Below are positions 26,775-56,335 of a stretch of 64,000 nucleotides of DNA, piece by piece. The DNA is from Planctomycetia bacterium (GTDB lineage: Bacteria > Planctomycetota > Planctomycetia > Gemmatales > HRBIN36): positions 1 to 64,000 of the forward strand of contig JAEUIE010000022.1 in the NCBI GenBank assembly GCA_016795155.1. The letters run 5' to 3'. Position 1 is the first letter of the stretch. Each line of letters opens with the position of its first letter. The notes under the pieces are model-generated. The model was given only the letters and a program-made list of their open reading frames with translations, did not search any database and had not been told where the DNA came from. Made by a program: the position numbers and the translations under genes.

Positions 26775-26910
26775 TTGCCGCGGCAGGGCGAGACGGGAGA
26801 GGCTGATCCAACGCACAAAGAGCGGATGTTTATGGCTGCTCCTTCCGGCCTGACCAGGTTCACAAAGCCCCATTGCGTGGGTCCCCTCCCGCCTCGCCGC
26901 ACCGCGGCAA
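26775..26910 (-). ncRNA. ffs: Signal recognition particle RNA (small bacterial type)
   Basis: On the minus strand the apical SRP domain is unmistakable: ACCTGGTCAGGCCGGAAGG followed by AGCAGC (26834-26859). That is the 4.5S GGUCAGG...GGAAGGAGCAGC signature bound by Ffh. The ends TTGCCGCGG and CCGCGGCAA pair, closing a long rod of about 136 nt, and a run of seven T follows the 3' end (26768-26774 on plus), giving a natural terminator. The RNA is transcribed on its own between two minus-strand genes. It targets membrane and secreted proteins with Ffh/FtsY. The exact ends are inferred from the closing stem. Confidence 0.92.
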
Positions 26911-28607: not shown

Positions 28608-28689
28608 GGGAGAAGCCTTTCACAAGGATGCAAGGCTTGTGATAGAGGCTACGCTGTTAGTTGCCAACTTTTTCAGAACGTTTCCGTGG

Positions 28690-28708
28690 GACACGTTTTC
28701 AACGTGTC
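28690..28708. repeat. GACACGTT palindrome, second copy
   Basis: GACACGTT-TTC-AACGTGTC is the same unit as 25856-25874, inverted (the loop reads GAA there). It lies in the divergent spacer between the carboxylase and the TlpA-like gene. Confidence 0.6.
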
Positions 28709-28786
28709 ATTATTCTTGCACCCTGTCCCCACGCCCCTCGCCGCATACACATAACACCAGCCATTCAATCAACAAGGAGTATCCCA

Positions 28787-30097
28787 ATGCGTTATGCCAC
28801 GTGGATGCTGTGCATGGGAATCCTCTTGGCAGGATCCATGCAGGCCGATGATCCGCCGGCCCAAAAATCTGTACAGGATGAAGTTCAGAAACAGCTAAGT
28901 GCCATTCAATCCGAATGGAACACCAAGCGGGGCGAGTTCTTCAAGAAATTCCAGGAAATCAACGATCAGAATGAACGAGCCAAGTTTTATCAGAAGGAAG
29001 CACCCAAATTTGACACTTATGCCGAGCGTGTGCTGAAGCTGGCTAACGAAAACCCCACTGCACCCAAGGCTGCAGATGCTGTGCTCTGGTGTTTCATGAA
29101 TGGTGTGGAAGGCAAGCAGGAAGAGGCCTGTGCCAAGTGGCTCAAAAGCTGGATTACCAGGACCGATCTTCCTGCGCTCAATCAGCAGTTGAAACGATAC
29201 TACTATCTCAACAACCGCGAGGTCATTGCTGCAGTCTTTGAGAAGGTAAAATCCGCAGGTAAGAATGAACACGCAGTACCACTTCTGGTCTGGGTCTCCC
29301 GTCAGGGTGTCTATTCCGACCAGGCGGCCAAGGTCGCAGGCGATGCTCAGAAGCTGATGCTCGATCAGTTTATTGAAGCACCTGAATTGGGTGATGTCTG
29401 CATGTCATTGGCCGATTCCGAAGATGCCAAAGCAACAGAGACATTGAAGAAAATTCTCGACAAGACCAAGCATGAGGATGTCAAAGCCAAGGCGTGCCTG
29501 GCCCTGGGCAAGCAATATGCCAAGAAGGAACTTACCCACCCCGATGCAGAGAAAATGTTCGAACGCGTTCTGAAGGAGTTTCCCAAGCTCGATAAGAATG
29601 TCAAGAACATGGCATCGGGAGAGCTGAATGAACTCAAGTTTCTCTCGGTAGGCAAACCCGCCTTGGAAATCGCAGGCAAAGATCTCGACGACAAGGAATT
29701 CAAACTGTCTGATTACAAAGGCAAAGTGGTGCTGCTCGATTTCTGGGGCTTCTGGTGAGGCCCCTGCGTGGCGATGATCCCTCACGAGCGGTCGCTTGTG
29801 AAACGCCTCGAAGGTAAGCCCTTTGTCATCATCGGCGTCAATTCCGATACCTATAACGATGGCTTCAAGAAGAACATGGAGAAACATCAGGTCACTTGGC
29901 GTTCGTTCAAAAACGAAAGAGAAGGGGACGCTGGTGCGATTGCAACACAATGGAACGTCCGCGGCTGGCCCACGCTCTATCTGATCGATCACCAGGGCAT
30001 CATCCGCAACAAGTGGCTAGGCAGCCCCGGCGACAAAGTGCTCGATGAAGCCATCGAAACGCTTGTCAAGAATGCCGAGGCGGAGACGAAGAAATAA
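28787..30097 (+). CDS. Secreted TlpA/thioredoxin-like selenoprotein, in-frame TGA read as Sec (436 aa)
   Basis: A signal peptide (LCMGILLAGSMQA, cleaved near residue 20) leads into about 260 helical residues and a C-terminal TlpA-type thioredoxin domain (about 285-436). The active site reads GFW-TGA-GPC: the TGA at 29756-29758 occupies the first Cys of WCGPC, residue 324. The same frame continues with CVAMIPHERSLVKRL, VIIGVNSD, the cis-Pro stretch WNVRGWPTLYLIDHQG and a normal end. A hairpin with a GGTC loop follows 31 nt after the TGA. AAGGAG lies 7 nt before the ATG. The expected role is an extracytoplasmic thiol-disulfide oxidoreductase with a selenenylsulfide. The alternative is a nonsense mutation; no selA, selB or tRNA-Sec gene lies in the window. 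Confidence 0.82.
29770..29807 (+). promoter_or_regulatory. Candidate bacterial SECIS element
   Basis: TCACGAGC (29782-29789) pairs with GCTTGTGA (29794-29801) through 8 bp with one G-U, leaving a four-base loop GGTC. This equals the GGUC apical loop that SelB recognises in the E. coli fdhF SECIS. A lower stem GGCG (29770-29773)/CGCC (29804-29807) is separated by an asymmetric internal loop containing unpaired U. The loop starts 31 nt after the TGA, inside the spacing known for bacterial SECIS elements. It overlaps coding sequence, as these elements must. Confidence 0.75.
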
Positions 30098-53740: not shown

Positions 53741-56335
53741 TTATCTCTTCGTCTCGAGTGCGGTTTCTGCAATTCTCACTACACTATCTACCATAAAATC
53801 AATCTCTCGCGTATCCGGCACACCCGTCCAGACTTTTCTGATCTCACCACGATGATCTACCAGGATCATGGTTGGGACAGTATTGATATTCAATGCTTTG
53901 GTTACCAGGGTCCCGTCAGGCAGTTTATTCTTGAATGATCTTCGATTCTGTTTGTAGGCTGCCAACCCTTTGGCAATGACCTGCTCATTGGTATCGGTAT
54001 TAACGCCAACCATAACGAAGGGGCGACCATTGTGCCGTGTGATGAGTGAATTATCGTAGAAAAACATACTCACACAATCAGGTGAATGATACCCCCAGAA
54101 GCTGATCAGCACGACTTTGCCGTCATTTTCTGAAAGTTTCATGCTCCTTCCATCGAGGTCTTCACCCACAATATCAACCATCTTGCTGCCAGCCTTCAGT
54201 AGTGAGCTGTTCGAAGTGGTATTGAGCGCACCCGGTGAGGGAGGATTTGATGCCGGTGCTGAACCAGTTCCTGTTCCGTTCGAATTCACATTGAATGAGC
54301 CGCCACCTGGTTGATTCGTGTTACGATTAGCAGGTGCCTGGCGTGAGTTATTATTCTTAGCTGGAATATTTCGGTTAACAGCAGGCTTCCAGTTTGATCC
54401 AGCATTCTCCACTGATGGTCGCTGGGTTGCTGGTTGTCCAGAACTATTGCTCGAAGGAGCAGTGCCAGGAGGAACCTGATTATTGGAAGTACCTCCAGAA
54501 GTAACTGGTAATGGTTGCCCACCTCCCAGAGTTGGCCGGTTGGCAGGAGAAGTGTTCGTGCCGATTCCAGGAGCATTGGTGTTGTTAGTGTTCGATCCGG
54601 GTACTGGACTGCTGCCAGTGGTAGGGTCATCGTAGTTGGCACTTCGTCCCAACGCACCTGTTCCAACGTTCGAATTACCGGTGTTGTTTCCGGGATTATT
54701 TTCTGGAGGCTTCGACGCCAGTTTGTCCTGTGATGAATCAGAAGTACCAGAATTGGAAGTCGTTGGAATGCCTGGTGGTGGATCATTGTTACCTGGTATT
54801 CCCGGAGGTGTATCGGTTGATGGCTTCTGAGCAGTTTCAGGATCAGCTTGAGGTTTTTCCTCCTTATCATTCTTGTTATTACCAAGAGTGATGCGTCCGA
54901 AACTATTGCCGGATCCTACATCTGTTCCGGGTTTGGGATTCTGATTATTAGCAGCATTCCTGTGAGCCTTTTCAATATCTGTCTGCATGCGCTTGATGAT
55001 GTCCTCAGCCTTGTAACTGATCTCTTCTTTGCGCTCTGCACTTACACCAGAGAATAGTGCTACCAACCCCCAAATGCCGCCTACAAGAATGAGCAACGAA
55101 GCAGCAATGACAATCCACTTCGTCATATCGCTCTTGCTCTGTTTCTTTTTGAACTTCTTGCTTCGTGGCAACTTCTTGGTAATCCGCTTGGTTGAAGCGG
55201 TGTCATGAACCCTGACGTCGGCAGTCGTGTTGGCAAAAGAACCCGTTGTCGGCTGTTCAATCGGAGCAGTGCTGATGTCATTCAGTATGGTCACATCGGT
55301 TATCAGGCTTGCCGTTGGATTGGTCAGACTTCGAAGTGCAGAGATGACTTCATCCGGCGTTGAAAACCGTTGTGAAGGCTGTTTTGCAAGCATCCGGGTG
55401 ACAATCTCAGACAGGGCAACGGGGATTTCGGGCCTGATGTGATGAACCGGGGTAGGCATCTGCAACTGATGCTGCACCAGTTTCTGCGCAGGTGTGCCAT
55501 GGACTGGTGATTGACCTGTCAGAAGTACATGGGCTGTTGCACCCAGACTGTAAATATCTGCACGAATGTCGATCGCAGCATTGGCGATAGCTTGTTCGGG
55601 CGAAACAAAATCAATTGACCCCTGCACATCCTTGCCTTCCGACAGGTCTGCTGTCAGGTTATCGTCCCTCTTCTCTAACGATCTTGCCAATCCAAAGTCG
55701 AGAATCTTGACTTGCCCGGATTTTTCCAGGAGCAGATTGGCAGGCTTGATATCGCGATGTACAAAACTACGCTCGTGGGCATGCTGCAAGCCGCGACAAA
55801 CCTGAATCAGAATATTGCAGACAGCTTTCCAGGGAAGGAACCCTTTTTTCTCCACCAGTTTCTGCAGATTGGTGCCATCCACATATTCCATGACCAGGTA
55901 ATGGCAGCCTTCGTGCTCATTCACATCATGTGCTTTGACAATATTGACGTGGTCCAATGTCGCTACAGAACGTGCTTCACGATAGAATCGCTCAACCGCC
56001 AGCTGATCCTTGAGTCGATCTTCGGGGAGGATTTTGATCGCAACCCGTCGTCCCATTTTCTTGTGTTCGGCCAGGTAAACAATACCCATGCCACCCACAC
56101 CCAGTTTGCTTTGAATGTGATAGGGGCCTATGGTCAAGCCTTTGTACTTTCCGGCTTTGAGGAACTTGGCCTGAAATTCCGTGAGAAGCTTGCTGCGTAC
56201 GAAGAACTGGCACAGTCGCGCGGTATCATCCGTATCGCCTGAGTAATTCATCAAGGCGTCGTCGAGTTCTTTCTGCGTCAGCAATTCACTCTTTTTCAGA
56301 CTTTCAAGGAATGAATTAGCGGTGTCAGTTGGCAT
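53741..56335 (-). CDS. Transmembrane Ser/Thr kinase fused to a TlpA-like thioredoxin domain, 864 aa
   Basis: In order: a short helical N terminus; a Hanks kinase about 70-340 (LGVGGMGIVYLAEHK; HRDIKPAN at 193-200; DFG at about 213); a basic juxtamembrane stretch (RSKKFKKKQSK); a membrane helix about 405-428; an Asn/Pro/Gly/Ser/Thr-rich linker of about 270 residues; and a TlpA/thioredoxin-type domain about 735-864. The domain's active-site segment is FWGYHSPDC, so the first redox position (751) is Ser and only Cys754 remains. It is clearly related to the Sec-containing protein at 28787 (GVNTDT, RRSFKN, cis-Pro TVPTMILVDHRG). AGGAGG lies 5 nt before the ATG. The outer domain may sense or bind thiols without acting as an oxidoreductase. 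Confidence 0.9.
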   Translation of the reverse strand: MPTDTANSFLESLKKSELLTQKELDDALMNYSGDTDDTARLCQFFVRSKLLTEFQAKFLKAGKYKGLTIGPYHIQSKLGVGGMGIVYLAEHKKMGRRVAIKILPEDRLKDQLAVERFYREARSVATLDHVNIVKAHDVNEHEGCHYLVMEYVDGTNLQKLVEKKGFLPWKAVCNILIQVCRGLQHAHERSFVHRDIKPANLLLEKSGQVKILDFGLARSLEKRDDNLTADLSEGKDVQGSIDFVSPEQAIANAAIDIRADIYSLGATAHVLLTGQSPVHGTPAQKLVQHQLQMPTPVHHIRPEIPVALSEIVTRMLAKQPSQRFSTPDEVISALRSLTNPTASLITDVTILNDISTAPIEQPTTGSFANTTADVRVHDTASTKRITKKLPRSKKFKKKQSKSDMTKWIVIAASLLILVGGIWGLVALFSGVSAERKEEISYKAEDIIKRMQTDIEKAHRNAANNQNPKPGTDVGSGNSFGRITLGNNKNDKEEKPQADPETAQKPSTDTPPGIPGNNDPPPGIPTTSNSGTSDSSQDKLASKPPENNPGNNTGNSNVGTGALGRSANYDDPTTGSSPVPGSNTNNTNAPGIGTNTSPANRPTLGGGQPLPVTSGGTSNNQVPPGTAPSSNSSGQPATQRPSVENAGSNWKPAVNRNIPAKNNNSRQAPANRNTNQPGGGSFNVNSNGTGTGSAPASNPPSPGALNTTSNSSLLKAGSKMVDIVGEDLDGRSMKLSENDGKVVLISFWGYHSPDCVSMFFYDNSLITRHNGRPFVMVGVNTDTNEQVIAKGLAAYKQNRRSFKNKLPDGTLVTKALNINTVPTMILVDHRGEIRKVWTGVPDTREIDFMVDSVVRIAETALETKR

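Follow-up and report, generated by a model that had tools for sequence, protein, structure and literature searches.

The 864-residue protein encoded on the minus strand of the 64,000-nucleotide stretch of planctomycete DNA analysed here (the window) is a membrane Ser/Thr kinase that carries a TlpA/ResA-like thioredoxin domain at its C-terminus. On balance, we favour the reading that sequence comparison gives of a receptor-type kinase whose outside domain lacks thiol-disulfide activity and is most likely a non-catalytic binding domain. Classical thiol-disulfide sensing is impossible in a second copy of the protein encoded in the same genome (the paralogue) and is unlikely in the window copy, where the one Cys that is retained may still permit some thiol chemistry.

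Architecture of the kinase and its thioredoxin-fold domain

The window protein matches the Pfam Pkinase profile (PF00069) over residues 72-327 with an E-value of 5e-53 and a score of 180.5 bits against a cut-off of 31.7. Its catalytic motifs are intact, with a GVGGMGIV glycine loop, VAIK, HRDIKPAN, DFG and SPE, and the profile score together with the catalytic Lys, HRD and DFG identifies it as a Ser/Thr protein kinase. It does not belong with the PASTA kinases of the PknB/Stk1 type, as it scores 310 bits against the NCBIfam cut-off of 450 and the Pfam scan returned no PASTA domain. A single transmembrane helix and a linker connect the kinase to the thioredoxin domain (Table 1). The earlier note had estimated this linker at roughly 270 residues, close to the length found when counting starts after the membrane helix. 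It had placed the thioredoxin domain at 53741-54110, which is correct as to location but not as to the start; the first ~27 residues of the domain were cut off. The window's only Rfam match is a small bacterial SRP RNA (RF00169, 44.9 bits) at 26793-26889 on the minus strand.

Table 1. Positions in the window of the kinase gene, its parts and the selenoprotein used for comparison
Feature	Position	Strand	Basis or remark
Whole gene, 864-residue membrane Ser/Thr kinase with TlpA-like domain	53741..56335	-	
N-terminal region, ~71 residues	56123..56335	-	many paralogous kinases match from residues 1-8 onwards
Pkinase domain, residues 72-327	55355..56122	-	Pfam match and intact catalytic motifs
Transmembrane helix, residues 408-426, preceded by a Lys/Arg-rich stretch	55058..55114	-	hydropathy 2.54
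Asn/Pro/Ser/Gly-rich linker, 289 residues, no Cys	54191..55057	-	
TlpA/ResA-like thioredoxin-fold domain, residues 716-864	53744..54190	-	Pfam; sequence and fold matches to ResA
Ser751 codon TCA, position of the attacking Cys/Sec	54083..54085	-	
Cys754 codon TGT, remaining (resolving) Cys	54074..54076	-	
TlpA-type selenoprotein, UGPC	28661..30097	+	TGA at 29756-29758

Redoxin, Thioredoxin_8 and AhpC-TSA all exceed their Pfam gathering scores on residues 714-842, Redoxin with 36.8 bits against a cut-off of 26.6. The solved structures closest to the domain by sequence are those of ResA. AlphaFold2, supplied with 22 related domains alongside, produced a model with a mean pLDDT of 96.3 and a pTM of 0.91, for which the top Foldseek match was ResA (1st9; TM-score 0.81 normalized to the query and 0.89 to the target, E-value 7e-13). 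Profile and fold match to ResA thus place the domain among the TlpA/ResA-like thioredoxin folds, and its fold is confidently predicted to be intact.

The active-site motif reads FWGYHSPDC, with Ser751 in the position of the attacking Cys or Sec. The kinase-linked TlpA domain with an SPDC motif that the earlier note had described is therefore present, although that note overlooked the His that replaces the Trp normally preceding the motif, as well as the loss of the PHER motif and of two other conserved Trp residues. Cys754 is the sole extracytoplasmic Cys of the protein. The domain shares its fold, its sequence family (Redoxin, AhpC-TSA, Thioredoxin_8) and the cis-Pro with the extracytoplasmic thiol-disulfide oxidoreductases ResA, TlpA and CcmG. 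Unlike these enzymes, which have a CxxC or UxxC motif, it has SPDC and is tethered to a kinase by a membrane helix and a long linker.

Fused relatives and the distribution of change

Across the seven genomes of the family, the kinase closest to the window kinase (62% identity) is the paralogue, a 648-residue protein of the same architecture whose TlpA domain lies at G000:C44:188315-188767 (L042, also L006). Its motif, FWGFWDPHS, has lost both active-site Cys residues (DPHS), and the protein has no extracytoplasmic Cys at all; the reading frames of both copies are intact. Two genomes of a sister genus each encode a fusion of the same architecture (G001:C33 and G005:C59). When the kinases of the seven genomes are ranked by their match, precisely these four proteins take the first four places. 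In the kinase tree they form a single clade (support 100/99), with the window kinase and the paralogue as sisters (98/95), and in this planctomycete kinase-TlpA fusion clade the TlpA domain is C-terminal and follows one membrane helix. Synteny was rejected as proof of orthology for the sister-genus fusions since their neighbours differ, and orthology is accordingly taken from the kinase tree only. While the sister-genus proteins share the kinase clade and domain order of the window copy, they differ from it in retaining both CPHC and PHER, in coming from genomes without SelB and in having linkers of 103 residues each. The long disordered linker is not conserved among the four fusions, and the contrast between 289 residues in the window copy and 29 in the paralogue gives no hint of a single receptor geometry conserved between them.

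A separate fusion, G042:C55, joins a TlpA domain to an unrelated kinase through a repeat region and keeps CGYC. The earlier note had asked whether kinase-TlpA fusions always lack the first Cys, and had said that its sensor idea would weaken if fused relatives usually kept CxxC. With CPHC in the sister-genus fusions and CGYC in the independent one, fusion alone does not go with Cys loss; the step from fusion to a redox-dead sensor is weakened, and what the note had named as counting against its idea is in part what is seen. The class-wide search covered 398 genomes and listed the strongest matches, so additional kinase-TlpA fusions may exist. Apart from G042:C55, the other high-scoring TlpA matches in long frames had sigma-factor, protease, zinc-ribbon or repeat partners in place of a kinase. 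Contigs of 84,980 species scanned with the TlpA domain alone gave no relative; a scan of these contigs with the whole protein gave 79 loci, all of them kinase matches and none with an in-frame TlpA domain. Among these loci, L189 had a long matched range (72-833) but was ruled out as a fusion by HMM. Viral contigs gave no match. We found no report of kinase-thioredoxin fusions in the open-access literature, nor does thioredoxin come up in a 2024 survey of the kinases of planctomycetes.

To place the missing Cys in context we compared 79 TlpA-like domains from this and related genomes, a set picked by similarity to the window or fused domains and not unbiased. The first position is Cys or Sec in 75 of these (39 CxxC, 21 UxxC and 15 UxxU). 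Four depart from this, namely the window domain (SxxC), the paralogue (DxxS) and two unrelated non-kinase proteins, both with a lost active site: SGAS behind a protease-like domain in L048 (G057:C1257) and GGPW behind a sigma-factor-like N-terminus in L129 (G097:C139). The SPDC form of the window copy is known from the one genome of its genus that the comparison covered.

The kinase domains of all four fusions are 47-50% identical to outgroup kinases. Identity of the TlpA domains to outgroup TlpA domains is 49-51% for the sister-genus fusions, 36.6% for the window copy and 30.3% for the paralogue. The sister-genus fusions keep 47 of the 53 conserved columns each, the window domain 33 and the paralogue 24. 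Change has therefore accelerated strongly in the TlpA domain of both copies of this genome and not in the kinase, and the loss of Cys belongs to this genome's lineage. Missing from both copies are Cys36, PHER at 44-47, W83 and W100. Both keep G24, V26, F31, W32, N64, D66, the cis-Pro106, T107, D112, G115 and R118. The loss of the active-site face together with retention of the fold core indicates that in this lineage the constraint of catalysis was lifted from the domain but its fold was maintained.

The acceleration fits relaxed constraint as well as new function. Under the former, which we regard as rather unlikely but as the main rival to a binding domain, the kinase had no need of its TlpA domain after the duplication, and the domain has been drifting, the lost Cys being an early sign of a dying passenger. 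The strong acceleration of both copies, their different degeneration (SPDC versus DPHS) and the unstable linker length are all consistent with such decay. However, both frames are intact and the fold of the window copy is predicted at a pLDDT of 96. Undirected decay should also affect the fold core and the active-site face alike, which is not the pattern seen in either copy.

A putative binding role for the extracytoplasmic domain

In the binding-domain reading, the ancestral kinase-TlpA fusion would have been redox-competent, with Cys or Sec at its active site. Following the duplication in this lineage, catalysis would have been shed by both copies and the fold kept as a scaffold, putatively for a peptide, a periplasmic protein or a small ligand. 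Binding would then alter receptor clustering and hence trans-activation of the kinase, as has been proposed for other membrane Ser/Thr kinases whose sensor domain lies outside, such as PknD. The window protein resembles the receptor kinases PknB/Stk1 and PknD in its cytoplasmic kinase, one membrane helix and C-terminal outside domain. That domain is a disarmed thioredoxin fold in the window kinase, however, and neither PASTA nor propeller; PknD, with an outside beta-propeller, is itself an example of a non-PASTA sensor (PMC6107167). Thioredoxin folds that have been kept after loss of active-site Cys residues also occur in TMX2 (SNDC), in TMX5 and ERp44 (CRFS) and in the b-type domains of PDI, and some inactive or one-Cys thioredoxin-fold proteins of the PDI family serve as binding domains (PMC7563315). 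These are eukaryotic PDI-family proteins without a kinase, and are unrelated to the window protein beyond the fold.

As a redox sensor, the window copy would have to work with a single thiol: an intermolecular or mixed disulfide of Cys754 would cluster the kinase, much as has been considered for the PDI-family proteins TMX2 (SxxC) and TMX5 (CxxS). We consider this quite improbable. The second Cys in ResA/TlpA structures is buried and poorly reactive, and the paralogue has no extracytoplasmic Cys with which to share the mechanism, so that thiol chemistry cannot be common to both copies. The case for a single-thiol sensor is that Cys754 has been kept, as the only Cys outside the membrane, and that TMX2 is a natural SxxC precedent within the thioredoxin family (PMC7563315). 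The sensor interpretation of the earlier note thus holds insofar as an extracytoplasmic thioredoxin fold, intact by prediction and lacking its catalytic residue, is attached to a membrane kinase; redox sensing, a rule of Cys loss, and the sisterhood and shared clients considered below find no such support.

A binding role would make the protein an instance of an extracytoplasmic enzyme domain turned putative receptor domain, with an enzyme-like state surviving in the sister genus and a single genome carrying two copies that were disarmed in different ways. It offers a concrete, testable case of sensor-domain acquisition by bacterial receptor kinases. A planctomycete genome encodes some hundred Ser/Thr kinases and, to our knowledge, almost none of their signals are known.

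The window selenoprotein and the selenium context

The TlpA-type selenoprotein encoded elsewhere in the window has the motif FWGFWUGPC. As the earlier note had observed, its thioredoxin domain aligns with that of the kinase; BLASTP gave 39% identity over 150 aa with an E-value of 6e-39 in a single comparison, a likeness far beyond chance. The selenoprotein domain is the best other match to the window domain in the genome, yet its margin over other relatives is small, with 39.5% identity compared to 38.9% for a CPHC fusion and 34-39% for seven other relatives. The domain tree did not bear out the specific sisterhood that the note had implied: it was compatible both with a grouping of all four fused domains (p-AU 0.57) and with a pairing of the window domain and the selenoprotein (p-AU 0.45). 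Both degenerate copies have long branches in this tree, and no starred set joins the window domain and the selenoprotein. The selenoprotein would accordingly appear to be only a generic relative of the window domain.

That the thioredoxin domain of the kinase competes for, or reads out, the clients of the selenoprotein is very unlikely: their identity and their shared predicted location outside the cytoplasm (the N-terminus of the selenoprotein is signal-like) are compatible with the idea, but that identity is generic, sisterhood fares no better in the tree than its alternative, the genes lie 24 kb apart without a common operon, and the loss of the conserved, client-facing active-site face makes a common client surface improbable.

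In this genome SelB exceeds the curated cut-off (401.9 bits), and there is also a good tRNA-Sec. In the two CPHC genomes no SelB was found above the cut-off, tRNA matches were weaker and of serine-tRNA length, and all TlpA relatives found have Cys. Five TlpA-like selenoprotein candidates occur in the genome: the one in the window (29642-30097, UGPC) and those at G000:C22:102641 (UGPC), C62:34185 (UPPC), C5:92022 (UGPC) and C55:50101 (UINC). The tRNA-Sec, at G000:C5:90415-90508, lies ~1.5 kb upstream of the UGPC TlpA-type selenoprotein at 92022-92456.

A single base separates the Ser751 codon, TCA, from TGA, whereas two separate it from either codon for Cys; this permits rather than demonstrates a Sec ancestor of the window Ser. 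The fused domain could then descend from a UxxC TlpA, with a TGA to TCA change disarming it here, after which it came to bind the ligand in a pair of receptor kinases; the sister genus, having lost SelB, would have swapped Sec for Cys. We regard this origin as doubtful. SelB, tRNA-Sec and the four other UxxC TlpA-like domains of the genome support it weakly, because the branch is long, the tree lacks resolution and TCA is common in the gene (22 of 72 Ser codons).

The UxxU domains in the comparison set form a recurrent subfamily of TlpA-like domains, each encoded with two TGA codons in frame (e.g. FWSEFUGFURAFWPHERS). UxxU has been reported in the Prx-like 2 family from marine metagenomes (PMC2398784), and we found no report of it in TlpA-like proteins in the literature. 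The subfamily occurs in Gemmatales and other Planctomycetia (loci L068, L134-L142, L146, L147, L161, L167 and L168). In its members Thr usually precedes the cis-Pro-Thr; in most of the other forms that residue is Trp, Phe or Tyr.
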